From: Terricaulis silvestris
Lineage (GTDB): Bacteria; Pseudomonadota; Alphaproteobacteria; Caulobacterales; Aquidulcibacteraceae
Direction of reading: 5' to 3'
Assembly (NCBI RefSeq): GCF_009792355.1
Contig: NZ_CP047045.1
Coordinates: 2,196,501 to 2,260,500, forward strand
Length of the DNA: 64,000 bases
The number at the start of each line of letters is the position of its first letter. Within the stretch, counting starts at the first letter, position 1. A program made the position numbers and the translations under genes. This document shows, one piece after another, positions 52,454-57,009 of this stretch. The notes beneath the pieces were generated by a model. That model did no database searches and was not told the origin of the DNA. It was given only the letters and a program-made list of their open reading frames with translations.

Positions 52454-52615
52454 GGCGCGGGGCGTATCGCGCAGGCCGTCGCTCGGCAAGCAGTTCACTC
52501 GCCCGCCGGTAGTGTTCCGTCGCGGGATGGCATGACCTGTGATTGAGTCTGTGTCGTACAGCGGGGTACGTACGTAACCCTACGCGTGGCGGCGCGGCAA
52601 AGAAGGAGGATAACC

Positions 52616-52879
52616 TTGATAAAGGTTGTTAAATCCGTCCTCGGCGCCGGCGCGATTCTAGCAGCGATGACGACACATGCTGCGGCGGAAACTTGCATAC
52701 TTTTCCTCTGCCTTGGCGGCGACGGCAAGTCCGGCGGCGACACTGGTGGCGGCGGTGGTGGTGGCAGTGCGCCGTCAGCGCCGGAAATCGACGCTTCGCA
52801 AGGTCTGACCGCGATCGCGGTGCTGGCTGTTGCAGTGCTGTTAATGCGCGAACGCTTCTTGCGCCAACGCGCGATCTAA
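52616..52879 (+). CDS. APEID (VPEID-CTERM-type) exosortase E substrate protein 1
   Basis: 87 residues from a TTG start preceded by AAGGAGGA 5 bases upstream; that site decides the start. Residues 1-24 are a signal peptide ending AAA/E, followed by a TCxxxxC motif (Cys27, Cys32) and a Gly-rich linker. The C-terminal sorting signal is APEID at 55-59, a hydrophobic helix (LTAIAVLAVAVLLM) and a basic tail RERFLRQRAI. This matches the tripartite VPEID-CTERM type with Ala in place of Val. It is presumably cut and attached or released by the exosortase two genes downstream. Confidence 0.85.
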   Translation: MIKVVKSVLGAGAILAAMTTHAAAETCILFLCLGGDGKSGGDTGGGGGGGSAPSAPEIDASQGLTAIAVLAVAVLLMRERFLRQRAI

Positions 52880-52934
52880 AACCGGACGACCTGCTAGATG
52901 AGCGCGCTCCCCCTCCCAGGCGCGCGCGTCCGGT

Positions 52935-52969
52935 GCTTGGCGCAGCAGCCCCCCAGCGCTGCGCCAAGC
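52935..52969 (+). other. Stem-loop between the two exosortase substrates
   Basis: A perfect 12-base stem (GCTTGGCGCAGC at 52935-52946 and its complement at 52958-52969) with an 11-base loop. No T run follows, so it may attenuate transcription or stabilise the first substrate's mRNA rather than terminate fully. The rest of the gap 52880-53115 has no gene I can support. Confidence 0.6.
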
Positions 52970-53115
52970 TATCGCCCCGCGCGAAATATTACGAATTGCA
53001 CACGGACGCGTGGAAAGCCGTCGCGCGCATCCGCGGCGCATGGTTCCAATGAACCAAGTGGGGAGCTTCTCCGGCGCACGACGCGGCGGAAATCCTCAGC
53101 TGGGGGATTTCGTAC

Positions 53116-53433
53116 GTGCAAAAGTTTTTCAACATGGTGGCCACTGCGGCTGCGATGACAGCGGCGACCGTGACCACGGCGTCGGCCAAGACCTGCTTCC
53201 TGCTCTTCTGCTGGAACGCCCCGACCAAGGGCAACGGCGGCAACCACGGTGGCGGTCATGGCGGCGGCCACGGTGGTGGTCACGGTGGCGGCCACGGCGG
53301 TGGTCATGGCGGCGGCGGACATCCGTCGGCGCCGGAAATCGACGTGACGCAAGGCGCGGCAGCTTTGGTGATCGTCGCGATCGCGGTGCTCATCCTGCGC
53401 GAAGCCTATCTGCGCCAACGCGCCAAGGCCTAA
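53116..53433 (+). CDS. APEID (VPEID-CTERM-type) exosortase E substrate protein 2, His/Gly-rich
   Basis: 105 residues from GTG (GGGGGA 8 bases upstream). The signal peptide ends ASA/K at residue 24, and the TCxxxxC motif again puts cysteines at 27 and 32, exactly as in substrate 1. A linker of GGGH repeats (about residues 44-69) is followed by APEID at 72-76, a helix (AAALVIVAIAVLIL) and tail REAYLRQRAKA. The histidine repeats could bind metal. It is a paralogue of substrate 1 with a diverged linker. It ends 22 bases before the exosortase gene. Confidence 0.86.
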   Translation: MQKFFNMVATAAAMTAATVTTASAKTCFLLFCWNAPTKGNGGNHGGGHGGGHGGGHGGGHGGGHGGGGHPSAPEIDVTQGAAALVIVAIAVLILREAYLRQRAKA

Positions 53434-53455
53434 TTCTTGCGTCTAGCGCCGCACG

Positions 53456-55096
53456 ATGAGCACGATGAACATCGGCGACCGTGCGGCGCACGCGCCTAAA
53501 ACCTGGCGCATAGGCGCACGCGGGGCTGCGCTTGCGCTGCTGTTGCTTGTCGAGATCGTCCTGCTCGACGGCGCCTATTCATTCCGTGACATTGTAGGCG
53601 GCGCACCTTCGCCGGCGTGGAGAGTCTTCAACGATACGCTGCAGGTTCTCGTTTACGTCGCGCTCTATGCCGGCATAGCGTTCTGCTTTCTCGCCTTCGC
53701 GCAATCGCGCGCCATCGTCGCCGATTGGCTGACGGACGCGCGGACCCACCGCTGGGGCCGCTGGCTCGGCGCCCAGACGGTGCTTTTCCTCGGCTTGCTT
53801 GCAGCGCTATCAGCGCTCAGCGGCGCGAATGCGACGCCGTGGGCCGGTGTTTCGCTCTGGATGGCGGCGGCGGGCGCGATGGTGGTTTGCGCGGTGATCG
53901 CGCTTGCGCCGATCTCGTTTTGGTTCGGCTTTGCGCGCAAACACGCCGGCCATGCCATTGTAGCGCTGGCGTTCGGCGCACTCACCTACGCGGCGATCGA
54001 GTTCTCGCGCAACAGCTGGCATGACCTCTCGGCCGCGACGCTCTACACGTCGCACTGGCTCTTGCAGCTTTACGAGCCGAGCGCGTTCATCGATGTGCCA
54101 AACCGCATGCTTGGTGCCCTCGACTTCCGCGTCATCATCGGTGCGCCTTGCTCCGGCTACGAAGGAGTCGGCCTCGTGCTCGGCATGATGAGCTTTTACA
54201 TCTTCGCCTTCCGCCGCGACCTGCGCTTCCCGCACGTGCTGGTGCTACTGCCGCTTGGCGCGCTGACGATCTGGGTGCTGAACGCGGTGCGGCTGACGTT
54301 GCTGGTCAGCATGGGCGCTCACGTGTCTCCCGAGGTCGCCATTAACGGCTTCCATTCGCAAGCCGGCTGGGTGTTCTTTCTGACGGTGACGATCTCGCTG
54401 ATGCTGATCGCGCACCGCGCGCCGATCTTCCGGGCGCATCCCGTCGTCGATAAAAAGCAAGAGCGCGATCCGGCGCTCTATCTCGCCGCCGCACTGCTCA
54501 CGCCTTTCGCGGCGCTGATGGCGGCCCGCATTGGCGGCGCCGTGTTCGGCGACAGCTCCCGCTGGGCCGGCGTTCTGCTGATCGCCATTCCGGTGGCGAC
54601 GATCTGGATCTACCGCGACGCCATTCGCGGCCAGCTGGCCAAGATCGGCGCGGAGCCGTGGCTTGTTGGCCTCGCCGTCGGCGGGCTGTGGATTGTCACC
54701 GAGCCAGCGGCGGAAACATCGACGCTCGGCGCCTGGCTCGAAACGCAGCCGCCGGCGGCTGCCGCGGCGTGGCTCGCGCTTCGGATTTTCGGCTTCGCAC
54801 TGATCGTCCCAATCGTTGAGGAACTGGCGTTCCGGGGCTATCTGCACCGCGCGCTGATCAGCCGGCGCTTCGAAGCGGTAGCGCCTGGCGCGTTCACGTG
54901 GGTAGCGCTGATCGTCACCAGCGTGCTGTTCGGTGCGCTGCACGGGCGTTGGCTTGCGGGCGCGCTCGCGGGCGCAGCATTCGCGATCACTCTCTATCGC
55001 TCGAAGACTCTCTCCGGTGCGATCGCGGCGCACGTCGCGGCCAACGGCATCATCGCGATCTATGCGGTGATGATGGAGCGTTGGGAATTGCTCTGA
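53456..55096 (+). CDS. xrtE: Exosortase E fused to a CPBP (CAAX-type) intramembrane protease domain
   Basis: A 546-residue polytopic membrane protein. The N-terminal half is an exosortase: catalytic Cys232 in GAPCSGYEGVGLVLG, Arg279 in LNAVRLTLLVSMG and His300 in GFHSQAGWVFF. The C-terminal half is a CPBP/CAAX protease-like domain with EExxxR at Glu455-Arg460 (VEELAFRGYLHRAL), His496 (GALHGRW) and His526/Asn530. This fusion is the recognised exosortase E/protease type, whose targets carry VPEID-CTERM signals. Both substrates lie directly upstream on the same strand. The cleavage and attachment chemistry is inferred from the sortase-like triad. Confidence 0.93.
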   Translation: MSTMNIGDRAAHAPKTWRIGARGAALALLLLVEIVLLDGAYSFRDIVGGAPSPAWRVFNDTLQVLVYVALYAGIAFCFLAFAQSRAIVADWLTDARTHRWGRWLGAQTVLFLGLLAALSALSGANATPWAGVSLWMAAAGAMVVCAVIALAPISFWFGFARKHAGHAIVALAFGALTYAAIEFSRNSWHDLSAATLYTSHWLLQLYEPSAFIDVPNRMLGALDFRVIIGAPCSGYEGVGLVLGMMSFYIFAFRRDLRFPHVLVLLPLGALTIWVLNAVRLTLLVSMGAHVSPEVAINGFHSQAGWVFFLTVTISLMLIAHRAPIFRAHPVVDKKQERDPALYLAAALLTPFAALMAARIGGAVFGDSSRWAGVLLIAIPVATIWIYRDAIRGQLAKIGAEPWLVGLAVGGLWIVTEPAAETSTLGAWLETQPPAAAAAWLALRIFGFALIVPIVEELAFRGYLHRALISRRFEAVAPGAFTWVALIVTSVLFGALHGRWLAGALAGAAFAITLYRSKTLSGAIAAHVAANGIIAIYAVMMERWELL

Positions 55097-55257
55097 GCGC
55101 GCCGCGCGTCAGAGTTCTCCACAAACATGCGGGCGCGCGCGTCGAGCGCATGAACTCGTATTTATTGTAAGCGCAATTGACAGTTTGCGGCGGATGACCG
55201 GGAGTGAGTCGAGGTCTGGGGGAACGCGCACACGCGCACTTCCAGGGGGACCATCCG

Positions 55258-55908
55258 ATGCGGGCTCGGAGCTTTAGCCTTGCCGTTTTGACGTTGGCGC
55301 TAGGCGCGATCGTTATGATCGGACCTGCCGCCGCCACTGGTGGCACGCATTGCCATCACAACAGCTGCAATGGCGGACAAAACGGTCAGAACGGCGAGAA
55401 CGGAAACAACGGACAGAACGGCCAAAATGGTCAGAACGGGCAGAATGGTCAGAGCGGTCAAAATGGCCAGAACGGTCAAAACGGACAGAATGGTGAGAAC
55501 GGGCAGAACGGGGAAAATGGCCAGAACGGTGAGAACGGTCTCAATGGCGAGAACGGAGAGAACGGCCAAAACGGTCTGAACGGCGACAACGGAAAAAATG
55601 GGCGCGACGGACGCGACGGGCGCGTTACTGAAATCCCCGTCACCACCGCCTACGCGCCGCCGACGATCGCCACCGAAGACACCTGCATGGGCTCGAGTTC
55701 TGTCGGCGCGCAAGGCGTCGCATTCGGCGTTTCGTTCGGCACGACGTGGCGCGACGAGAACTGCCAGCGGCTGAAAAACTCGCGCGAACTCGCCGCGATG
55801 GGCTTCGCGCCGGCAGCTGTTGCACTGCTGTGCGTGGACAACGACGTGCGGGACGCCATGACCACGGCGGGCACGCCATGTCCCGGACGGCGCGAAGACG
55901 ACCGCTAG
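55258..55908 (+). CDS. Exported collagen-like Gly-X-Asn repeat protein with C-terminal cysteine domain
   Basis: 216 residues. A signal peptide ends AAA/TGG. After a CHHNSC motif come about 27 uninterrupted Gly-X-Asn triplets (mostly GQN and GEN, ending GKN, GRD, GRD), encoded at about 55375-55620. Glycine at every third position is collagen-like, but proline is absent. A cysteine-containing domain follows (EDTCMGSSSVGAQGVAFGVS ... AGTPCPG) that is shared with the next gene. ATG 55258 has AGGGGGA 7 bases upstream. It probably forms a surface or matrix fibre; this is inference from the repeat. Confidence 0.8.
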   Translation: MRARSFSLAVLTLALGAIVMIGPAAATGGTHCHHNSCNGGQNGQNGENGNNGQNGQNGQNGQNGQSGQNGQNGQNGQNGENGQNGENGQNGENGLNGENGENGQNGLNGDNGKNGRDGRDGRVTEIPVTTAYAPPTIATEDTCMGSSSVGAQGVAFGVSFGTTWRDENCQRLKNSRELAAMGFAPAAVALLCVDNDVRDAMTTAGTPCPGRREDDR

Positions 55909-55914
55909 ACGTCG

Positions 55915-56775
55915 ATGTATCCGCGCGCGCTCACGCCGGTGATGGCGTCGCTTGTGTTCGGCACAAGTGTGCAACCGTCATTCGCTTACGCCGACGAGAG
56001 TTATGATCTCGGCGGCGACAGCGCGCGGCTCGGCGCCGATGGCTACGAGGTCACGGGCGTGATCGAGACCCAGGAGCAGAGCGCGCAGCGGGGTGCGAGT
56101 TATCACGGGCCCCGAATTCCCGTGCCTACCGCCTACTCGCCCCGGATCGTCGCGTCCGAAGACACCTGCATGGGCTCACGCTCGTTCGGCCTGCAGCTAG
56201 CCGGCTTCGGCGTGTCGTTCGGCACGACCTGGCAAGACCGCCAATGCATGCGCATCAAGAACGCGCGCCAGCTCAATGCGCTCGGATACCAGCGCGCGGC
56301 GATCGCGCTGCTGTGCCAGGACGACGAGGTGTTTGACGCCATGGAGCGCGCGGGCACGCCGTGCCCCGGCCTTGAGCTGGTGACGTTCGAACCGCCGCCA
56401 CCTGAGGTACCGGCCGAGCCACCGCTCATCTCGTTCGACGACGTGCTGTTCGACTTCGACCGCGCGACGCTGCGGCCCGAAGCGGATGCGATCCTCGCGC
56501 CGGCGCTGGAGCTGCTGCAGGCGGATCCGGCGATGGCCGTCGAGATCGAGGGCCACACCGACTGGATCGGCAGCGACGGTTACAACGACGGCCTCTCGCG
56601 GCGCCGCGCCCAGGCCGTGGTGGAATGGCTCGTGGCGCGCGGGATCGAACGCGAGCGGATCAGCGCCGTGGGGCGTGGGGAAAGCGAGCCGGTCGCCACC
56701 AACGCGACGGCGGCCGGCCGCCAGCTCAATCGGCGGGTCGAGGTGCGACGGCGGGCCGGAACAAGCTCCTCCTGA
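55915..56775 (+). CDS. OmpA-family protein with the shared cysteine domain
   Basis: 286 residues. The N-terminus has a signal-like segment ending in AYA. Residues about 73-152 form the same cysteine domain as the upstream protein (EDTCMGSRSFGLQLAGFGVS ... AGTPCPG, four cysteines). A proline-rich linker (EPPPPEVPAEPP) leads to an OmpA/MotB peptidoglycan-binding domain (DFDRATLRPEADAILAPALE, GHTDWIGSDGYNDGLSRRRA, NRRVEVRR). It starts 6 bases after the collagen-like gene, so the two are co-expressed. It likely ties a surface structure to the cell wall. Confidence 0.88.
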   Translation: MYPRALTPVMASLVFGTSVQPSFAYADESYDLGGDSARLGADGYEVTGVIETQEQSAQRGASYHGPRIPVPTAYSPRIVASEDTCMGSRSFGLQLAGFGVSFGTTWQDRQCMRIKNARQLNALGYQRAAIALLCQDDEVFDAMERAGTPCPGLELVTFEPPPPEVPAEPPLISFDDVLFDFDRATLRPEADAILAPALELLQADPAMAVEIEGHTDWIGSDGYNDGLSRRRAQAVVEWLVARGIERERISAVGRGESEPVATNATAAGRQLNRRVEVRRRAGTSSS

Positions 56776-56797
56776 CGCGCAAGCGAAGGAGGTTCGG

Positions 56798-56842
56798 AAG
56801 GGGCGGCGCCCACCACCCGGCTAAAACCGGCGCCGCCCCTTT
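56798..56842 (+). terminator. Rho-independent terminator after the OmpA gene
   Basis: A 13-base perfect stem (AAGGGGCGGCGCC at 56798-56810, complement at 56829-56841) followed by a short T run. It separates the exosortase-associated block from the ribosomal operon. Confidence 0.8.
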
Positions 56843-56912
56843 CGGTTACCGTCACCTTGGGGATAACGCCCCTTGCTTCCCGGGCCGAAATGCGTATTTT
56901 CCGCGCCTTCGC

Positions 56913-56991
56913 GATCTGCGGCCCCGGGGGCATCCGCCGCCCGGGGTCCATCGTTTTTGCCGGTTCTTCCCCGGCAGAGGCGCCGCAGATC
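56913..56991 (+). promoter_or_regulatory. Structured leader of rpsF, candidate S6/S18 autoregulatory RNA
   Basis: An outer 10-base stem (GATCTGCGGC at 56913-56922 with 56982-56991) encloses two hairpins (CCCCGGG...CCCGGGG and TGCCGG...CCGGCA). This forms a three-way junction ending 18 bases before the rpsF ATG. Leaders that bind the S6:S18 complex occur upstream of rpsF in many bacteria. I cannot confirm the conserved recognition bases by eye. Confidence 0.5.
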
Positions 56992-57009
56992 ACTCGGAAG
57001 AGGACAAGA

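Follow-up and report, generated by a model that had tools for sequence, protein, structure and literature searches.

An exosortase E/CPBP protease fusion and its two probable small exported substrates in a three-gene cassette of Terricaulis silvestris

The window, a stretch of 64,000 nucleotides from the Terricaulis silvestris genome, holds a three-gene cassette consisting of an exosortase E/CPBP protease fusion (XrtE) and two small exported proteins, its probable substrates (Table 1), the three open reading frames lying where an earlier note, made from the letters alone, had placed them. AGGAGG stands at 52604-52609, ahead of the TTG start of substrate 1, and xrtE begins 22 bases past the substrate 2 stop codon. 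The description in the earlier note of two paralogous exported proteins preceding the enzyme is borne out: substrate 1 runs from a signal peptide through the head ETCILFLC and a Gly-rich linker to APEID, a helix and a basic tail, and substrate 2 follows the same order with the head KTCFLLFC and a (GGGH)n linker. Both paralogues carry cysteines at residues 27 and 32, adjoining the signal peptide, and have none in their C-terminal signals. A lipobox is the motif before the first cysteine of bacterial lipoproteins, and a lipoprotein reading of Cys27 was discarded, AET-C27 and AKT-C27 not fitting this motif by eye. The (GGGH) array is written in mixed synonymous codons, which argues against recent slippage. 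The exported parts are predicted to be about 35 residues long in substrate 1 and about 52 in substrate 2, and look more like flexible tethers than matrix domains.

Table 1. Features of the cassette and of the genes adjoining it, in window coordinates
Feature	Position	Strand	Basis or remark
Substrate 1, 87 aa, TTG start	52616..52879	+	ORF; TIGR04161 match
Head of substrate 1 exported part, residues 25-32 (Cys27, Cys32)	52688..52711	+	Sequence; aligned with relatives
APEID signature, substrate 1	52778..52792	+	Sequence; TIGR04161 profile positions 1-26
Substrate 2, 105 aa, GTG start	53116..53433	+	ORF; TIGR04161 match (below cut-off)
APEID signature, substrate 2	53329..53343	+	Sequence
xrtE, exosortase E/CPBP intramembrane protease fusion, 546 aa	53456..55096	+	TIGR04162, 2.7e-63
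Exosortase domain PF09721, residues 75-320	53678..54415	+	Pfam; Cys232, Arg279, His300
CPBP/Rce1-like glutamic protease domain PF02517, residues 438-531	54767..55048	+	Pfam, 1.1e-13
Collagen-like protein	55258-55908		Adjoins cassette
OmpA protein	55915-56775		Adjoins cassette

With 214.7 bits against TIGR04162 (curated cut-off 150), the enzyme is by profile membership an exosortase E. Nine of nine catalytic positions are present, namely Cys232 (codon 54149-54151), Arg279 and His300 in the exosortase half and Glu455, Glu456 and Arg460 of the EExxxR motif at 455-460, His496, His526 and Asn530 in the PF02517 domain, and residues 403-545 also match TIGR03008 (102.2 bits, cut-off 81.05); the fused protease with all its named catalytic residues, as first proposed, is thus upheld by the reading frame, Pfam and TIGR04162. 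An AlphaFold2 model of XrtE is confident (mean pLDDT 91.3, pTM 0.84), but the fold gives no independent support because Foldseek returned no PDB match for it (best E 1.5); a profile search for related solved structures likewise gave none at E 0.01, and a literature search found no biochemical data on any XrtE. Profile searches of the window genome found one XrtE, no other exosortase above the TIGR04178 cut-off, and no full-length TIGR04161 match besides substrates 1 and 2.

Against TIGR04161 (cut-off 33) the two substrates fare differently, and the refuting result named in the earlier note, C-termini that an HMM search puts outside VPEID-CTERM, has a borderline outcome. Substrate 1 is borderline, at 31.5 bits as a protein and 33.2 bits in the genome search, whereas substrate 2 scores 19 and 20.4 bits respectively and is not filed under TIGR04161 because it falls below the cut-off; with the tripartite C-terminus of motif, helix and basic tail found beside a cognate XrtE for both proteins, it is nonetheless a probable substrate of the adjacent enzyme. 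Among 30 genomes of the genus, the five with xrtE each have an adjoining TIGR04161 match from profile position 1, and in a sixth, G003, the match lies at a contig end, which supports co-occurrence of xrtE and a TIGR04161-type substrate within the genus. Two matches only exceed the cut-off in this search, and weak partial matches occur also in genomes without xrtE, one of which (G014, 18.6 bits, profile positions 8-29) scores higher than those of G004 and G029. The TIGR04162 match, the absence of a second exosortase above cut-off and this co-occurrence agree with the earlier view of a compact system with dedicated substrates. Its emphasis on Cys27 and Cys32 holds in part: the paralogues share the pair, G016 has one as well and so has G015, where the spacing is longer by one, whereas three of the six same-genus cassettes (G003, G004 and G029) lack it.

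A wider comparison covered the loci of 80 XrtE relatives, a substrate being defined as a protein of at most 200 aa in which xPE[ILMFV] is followed by a helix and a basic tail. Within one kilobase upstream of xrtE there were 88 matches (1.17 per kb), against nine (0.011 per kb) in the remaining 853 kb of these loci, both strands included; given this difference and the TIGR04162 score, the pairing of substrate and xrtE is not due to chance. Counting the window and setting no length limit, a substrate lies upstream of xrtE in 70 of 81 loci, and was not found in eight despite room upstream. The residue before PE is Ala in 28 of the 70 nearest upstream substrates, and so neither the supposed rarity of Ala in place of Val nor a reading of Ala as the mark of a separate subfamily can be maintained. 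More than one adjacent substrate is likewise seen repeatedly among relatives, and the poly-Gly and GGGH linkers, also taken to be unusual, have counterparts too: linkers rich in His and Gly occur in substrate 2, G029, G004, G003 and distant relatives such as L039, L094, L109 and L110, and those of G015 and G016 are Gly-rich without His, as in substrate 1. Taking the nearest substrate of each locus without a length limit, and cutting signal peptides by a home-made rule rather than a trained predictor, the exported part has a predicted median of 22 residues, with at most 15 in 31 of 69 substrates, at most 30 in 42 and over 100 in four. Many relatives' products would, on these predictions, be so short as to be peptides, not surface proteins. 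Substrates distant from xrtE were few in 20 XrtE genomes.

All nine catalytic positions are retained in 75 of the 80 relatives. The five others comprise L049 and L073, whose sequences end at a contig end, L075, in which XrtE is split over two frames, L033, whose last residues diverge from other XrtEs as from a frameshift, and L037, with Leu for His526. Across 60 aligned XrtE sequences seven of the nine positions are invariant, and His526 and Asn530 are found in 90% or more; from this retention, exosortase and CPBP activities therefore both appear to be under selection. Not every homologue works in the way proposed for the window XrtE, however, since that of G080, which scores well (316.6 bits), has lost the catalytic Cys of its exosortase half together with His496 and Asn530 of its CPBP half, and no neighbouring substrate was seen.

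A Pfam scan of 13 proteins flanking the cassette (47.2-60.3 kb) picked out genes for fatty-acid synthesis, the ribosome, peptidases and the envelope, but no polysaccharide gene. The adjoining collagen-like and OmpA proteins share a Cys-rich domain that occurs in 15 of the 30 genus genomes and, among the six bearing the cassette, only in that of the window; its absence from the five others led to rejection of the pair as part of the system. At the cassette itself there is no local Rfam match, no sigma-70-like promoter was found, and terminator-like sites are at chance level. A fatty-acid-hydroxylase gene adjoins xrtE in 16 of the 80 relatives' loci. None of the 17 copies is farther than 2.3 kb from xrtE, and the 575 kb lying more than 2.5 kb away yielded no other; 11 of the 16 loci are probably one lineage. 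The window genome has four fatty-acid hydroxylases, all away from xrtE, and a local partnership was rejected. In G029, G004 and G003 a DUF4118 histidine kinase stands upstream of the cassette substrate. Between the two lies a response regulator, identified in G029 and G004 and, in G003, discernible by eye. At E 1e-100 this kinase occurs among the 30 genomes only in these three and in G011 (57% identical), and its absence from the window genome at that threshold rules it out as a general partner.

The reading we prefer, with a probability of roughly 0.62, is that of a self-contained exosortase E/VPEID-CTERM cassette by which short tethers are exported, cut at APEID and anchored. The sequences show which genes these are, that both active sites are in place and conserved, and that under the profiles used the pairing is exclusive in the genome; from these we infer cut site, acceptor, order of cuts and location. 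Sec would export each substrate and signal peptidase would trim it near residue 24/25, after which the C-terminal helix would hold it in the inner membrane, APEID lying at the outer face. Using Cys232 as nucleophile alongside Arg279 and His300, the exosortase half would then cut at or next to APEID and transfer the C-terminus so formed to an acceptor, for which an amino-lipid is the likeliest candidate. A second cut by the CPBP half, in or near the membrane, would most likely clear the severed helix or complete release. The product would be a flexible Gly/His-rich tether of about 35 or 52 residues, its N-terminal head hydrophobic and bearing cysteine, its C-terminus probably anchored by lipid. 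A lipid acceptor is suggested by the hydroxylase gene beside xrtE in relatives and by analogy with archaeosortase ArtA and rhombosortase, whose products are cut C-terminally and then joined to a lipid or phosphoethanolamine-containing group (PMC7157517, PMC6219818). As no hydroxylase lies near the window xrtE, the suggestion applies to the family rather than to this locus.

An unlikely alternative is that the products belong to the surface or matrix and have a link to exopolysaccharide, in the manner of PEP-CTERM/EpsH systems. Exosortases were discovered through such a link (PMC1569441), and a polysaccharide-export-type cluster is present in seven distant loci (L060, L062, L077, L078, L082, L093 and L096, the last being the member scanned with Pfam), but the 13 flanking proteins scanned in the window include none of this kind, the collagen-like/OmpA pair does not track xrtE and the exported parts are too short for folded domains, leaving the 'matrix' role envisaged earlier unsupported. 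The His/Gly-rich tethers might instead bind metal ions or line the periplasmic face, with anchoring as the sole task of XrtE; the His-Gly-rich linkers listed above and the mixed codons of the (GGGH) array fit this, yet the linkers without His in substrate 1, G015 and G016 do not, and we regard it as very improbable.

Two further readings start from the small size of the products. It is distinctly doubtful, though conceivable, that a peptide trimmed at one end by signal peptidase and at the other by both active sites of XrtE is secreted, perhaps cyclised or capped, and acts as an extracellular signal. The maturation of agr-type pheromones, in which a cysteine peptidase of the membrane works together with a CPBP protease, offers an analogy. 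Exported parts are often peptide-sized, Marinicaulis loci encode as many as four paralogous precursors whose peptides vary and whose signals are nearly identical, and the DUF4118 kinase lies by the cassette in three genomes; but a search at E 1e-100 found no such kinase in the genome of the window, the three genomes with it at the cassette are probably one lineage (the G029 and G004 XrtEs are sisters), the low-complexity window parts are poor receptor-ligand candidates, and four relatives' parts exceed 100 residues. A broader proposal, quite unlikely as we judge it, would make XrtE fusions peptide-maturation machines rather than the usual protein-sorting enzymes, with the window cassette as a two-precursor example. 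A single chain that unites a Cys transpeptidase with an intramembrane protease of the glutamic type would act on tiny precursors, each a signal peptide and a sorting signal with often only a handful of residues between, and yield peptides that are capped, lipidated or cyclised and that act as signals or decorate the membrane.

The exosortase E family and its CPBP fusions were already known, and the window cassette joins this family; new here are the retention of the nine catalytic positions, the tiny predicted exported parts, the scarcity of distant substrates and the fatty-acid hydroxylase beside xrtE. A literature search found no answer to what accepts exosortase products in Gram-negatives or why some exosortases are fused to a CPBP protease, and an enzyme with only two small substrates, in three genes, comes close to the simplest setting for both questions. 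If exported parts are mostly peptide-sized family-wide and the hydroxylase is a neighbour in several lineages, a lipid-linked or released peptide, not a matrix protein, should be sought.

Among known systems, archaeosortase ArtA and rhombosortase resemble the proposed working in their C-terminal cut and subsequent attachment, although rhombosortase is an unrelated serine protease and ArtA is not known to have a CPBP half. In the myxosortase (MrtX)/MYXO-CTERM system (PMC11980579) a CPBP glutamic protease likewise acts on a C-terminal sorting signal, whose invariant Cys is proposed to carry a lipid; the window signals lack Cys and the CPBP protease is fused to a Cys exosortase. PEP-CTERM/EpsH systems with a free-standing CAAX-type protease (TIGR03008) resemble the two halves of XrtE, which match PF09721 and TIGR03008, but the window cassette has one polypeptide, two dedicated substrates and, in the Pfam scan of 13 flanking proteins, no polysaccharide gene beside it. 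The fusion is not unusual: it defines TIGR04162, and EpsH-CAAX fusions were noted in 2006 (PMC1569441). Exosortase E/VPEID-CTERM itself (TIGR04162 with TIGR04161) shares the fused enzyme, tripartite signal and small adjoining substrate; the XrtEs of G428 (746.6 bits) and G122 (589.8 bits) adjoin short Gly-rich VPEID proteins, as in the window. From the typical VPEID-CTERM arrangement the cassette differs in its two substrates, their cysteine-bearing heads, the score of substrate 2 below the TIGR04161 cut-off, and Ala for Val before PE in both, a replacement common in the wider set.

The xrtE product, an exosortase E/CPBP protease fusion of 546 residues, scores 214.7 bits (cut-off 150) against TIGR04162, the profile of the exosortase E/protease of the VPEID-CTERM system, with PF09721 covering residues 75-320, PF02517 residues 438-531, and residues 403-545 matching the CAAX-type protease profile TIGR03008. 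The catalytic residues that the earlier note had assigned to both halves were all found in place on checking the sequence. AlphaFold2 gave a confident model (pLDDT 91.3, pTM 0.84), with which a Foldseek search returned no match. Judged by inspection and a simple rule, both substrates begin with a common signal peptide of 24 residues, followed by a hydrophobic head containing Cys27 and Cys32, a linker that is either Gly-rich or (GGGH)n, and then APEID, a helix and a basic tail. Against the VPEID-CTERM profile TIGR04161 (cut-off 33), substrate 1 scores 31.5 bits as a protein and 33.2 bits in the genome search, and substrate 2 scores 19 and 20.4 bits, respectively. The genome, a single contig of 3.86 Mb, holds one TIGR04162 match; its profile searches gave no second exosortase above the TIGR04178 cut-off, and besides the two substrates TIGR04161 gave, at E up to 10, just two matches, both partial (13.6 and 11.5 bits) rather than full-length. 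The A4 profile, made from aligned substrates, recovered from this genome the same two proteins, both of them rows of A4, and no others.

Coordinates of the cassette, its surroundings and selected loci (L) of relatives
Feature	Location	Remark
fabD-rpsF gap	window 52454-57007	relatives' loci L113-L138
Substrate 1	window 52616-52879	same direction as substrate 2 and xrtE
Substrate 2	window 53116-53433	same direction as substrate 1 and xrtE
xrtE	window 53456-55096	same direction as both substrates; TIGR04162 match
Collagen-like NGQ-repeat protein	window 55258-55908	
OmpA-family protein	window 55915-56775	
DUF4118 kinase/response regulator	L032 5294-7500; L033 5291-7455; L142	
Hydroxylase loci	L037, L038, L040, L041, L043, L045, L046, L050, L053, L054, L092, L068, L071, L098, L103, L106	
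G015 xrtE	L075 7950-9158	two frames
G080 homologue	L006 1423-3129	
Shortest substrate frames	L047 7555-7683; L051 71-199	42 codons, VPEFD

The relatives of XrtE examined are the best 80 of 368 from one scan of genome contigs, so the sample leans to the window's own XrtE; within it, nine catalytic positions (Cys232, Arg279 and His300 in the exosortase half; Glu455, Glu456, Arg460, His496, His526 and Asn530 in the CPBP half) are intact in 75. The five exceptions comprise two genes at contig ends (L049, L073), the broken gene of L075, L033, whose last residues are altered in a frameshift-like manner, and L037, where His526 is replaced by Leu. Across A2, an alignment of the window's XrtE with 59 of these relatives (60 sequences), the first seven positions, up to His496, show no variation, and conservation reaches 90% at His526 and Asn530. 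Published work favours viewing exosortases as sortase-like enzymes, with Cys attack at the motif (PMC1569441); their archaeosortase and rhombosortase analogues place a lipid or phosphoethanolamine-containing group on the C-terminus (PMC7157517; PMC6219818), and a C-terminal sorting signal can be cut by a CPBP protease itself (PMC11980579). Because both active sites are kept together in nearly all relatives examined, two cuts per substrate are likely. In the favoured reading, the exosortase half would cut at APEID and carry out the transfer, and the CPBP half would then remove the severed helix, the order of the two steps being a guess. At E up to 1e-30, TIGR04162 matches 4 of 385 genomes of the class, the window's counted. 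The homologue in genome G080 has a high TIGR04162 score and carries Tyr in place of the exosortase Cys, while in the CPBP half His496 is replaced by Tyr and Asn530 by Ala; no substrate was seen across 19.6 kb around the gene, which could possibly encode a pseudo-enzyme.

Substrates were called by an explicit rule within 1.2 kb upstream of xrtE in 81 loci, the window counted, and were present in 70, with one to four per locus. The contig is too short upstream in three (L036, L069, L094), and the rule found no upstream substrate in eight (L058, L060, L062, L064, L076, L095, L098, L108), although a TPEIP protein does lie upstream in L108, and downstream proteins of PEI/PEV type are present in L060 and L098. 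Over 80 loci, the rule matched 88 times in 75 kb of upstream sequence versus 9 times in 853 kb elsewhere. Of the 70 substrates, 38 have V before PE, 28 have A, two have T, and one each has L and G; the commonest single motif is APEID (19/70). Taking the nearest substrate per locus and a home-made signal-peptide rule, the exported part has a median length of 22 residues (n=69; one more lacked a signal-peptide call); it does not exceed 15 residues in 31 cases, 30 in 42 or 60 in 57, and is longer than 100 in four. The start codon and signal peptide of the two shortest frames are uncertain. When 20 XrtE genomes were searched with A4, 28 of 31 matches (E up to 0.01) lay within about 3 kb of xrtE, by coordinates read by eye. 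Matches next to xrtE were expected, since 11 of the 16 A4 rows derive from these same genomes, and the informative part of the search is that distant matches are nearly absent, the three being on contigs C59 of G489, C25 of G485 and, partial, C22 of G004.

Within the genus, XrtE is encoded in 5 of 30 genomes, and in a sixth, G003, a 6,355-base contig carries the substrate at its end. A 60-sequence tree, from which the broken G015 gene was omitted, unites the XrtEs of the genus in a single clade (support 1.0), the window's grouping with those of G029 and G004 (support 0.997). The XrtEs of G016, G004 and G029 are 51-57% identical to the window's; the two G015 frames, which reflect either a fault of the assembly or decay of the gene, reach 47% and 67%. 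Full-length FabD matches in the genus are 79-90% identical, XrtE diverging far faster than FabD. In the window and in genomes G015 and G016, fabD and rpsF flank the cassette. Among 26 other fabD loci (25 genomes), these latter two have xrtE, 17 have fabD facing rpsF with no xrtE match between, and in seven the available stretch stops short of rpsF; G029 has a fabD-rpsF gap devoid of xrtE and its cassette elsewhere in the genome, and in G004 cassette and fabD are on different contigs. The distribution of the cassette in the genus is thus patchy, through loss, movement or exchange. TIGR04161 (E up to 0.1) matches 11 of the 30 genomes, from profile position 1 in the five xrtE genomes and G003 and only partially in G014, G002, G001, G011 and G008, the partial match of G014 (18.6 bits) scoring above those of G004 and G029. 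Ala precedes PE in the substrates of the window, G015, G016, G003, G004 and G029 alike; the Cys pair is found in both window substrates, G015 and G016, and is absent from G003, G004 and G029.

A gene of the fatty-acid-hydroxylase family adjoins xrtE in 16 of 80 loci (17 copies, PF04116 confirmed on four), nine labelled Marinicaulis, two labelled Alphaproteobacteria, four gammaproteobacterial and one labelled Acidobacteria. Every one of the 17 copies lies within 2.3 kb of xrtE; at distances over 2.5 kb, three tblastn queries detected no copy in 575 kb of sequence. The tree, read by eye, suggests three or four independent associations, and the hydroxylase may be a lipid-modifying partner of xrtE; none is encoded near the window's xrtE. 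In G029, G004 and G003 the cassette has a DUF4118 histidine kinase beside it, directly upstream together with a response regulator in the first two. Elsewhere in the 30 genus genomes, searched at E 1e-100, this kinase occurs only in G011 (57% identical), and the three genomes with the kinase beside the cassette probably represent one lineage. Window neighbours scanned with Pfam are YceG, ketoacyl synthase, acyl carrier protein, short-chain dehydrogenase, DUF1697, a FabD-like acyl transferase, ribosomal proteins S6, S18 and L9, prolyl oligopeptidase, collagen-like and OmpA proteins, and one membrane protein with no significant match. The collagen-like and OmpA-family proteins have in common a domain of about 85 residues with four Cys, 64% identical between the two by tblastn; this domain has no Pfam match itself and occurs in 15 of the 30 genus genomes.

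A literature search, with most subscription journals outside its scope, found no paper for 'VPEID-CTERM' or 'exosortase E'. Within the same scope, the short exported parts, the scarcity of distant substrates and the hydroxylase link were not encountered, only the first being touched by a targeted search, whose one result looked unrelated. The fusion of an exosortase with a CPBP protease was already described in 2006, with four examples (PMC1569441); such a fusion is what TIGR04162 models, and the window's cassette belongs to this known exosortase E kind.
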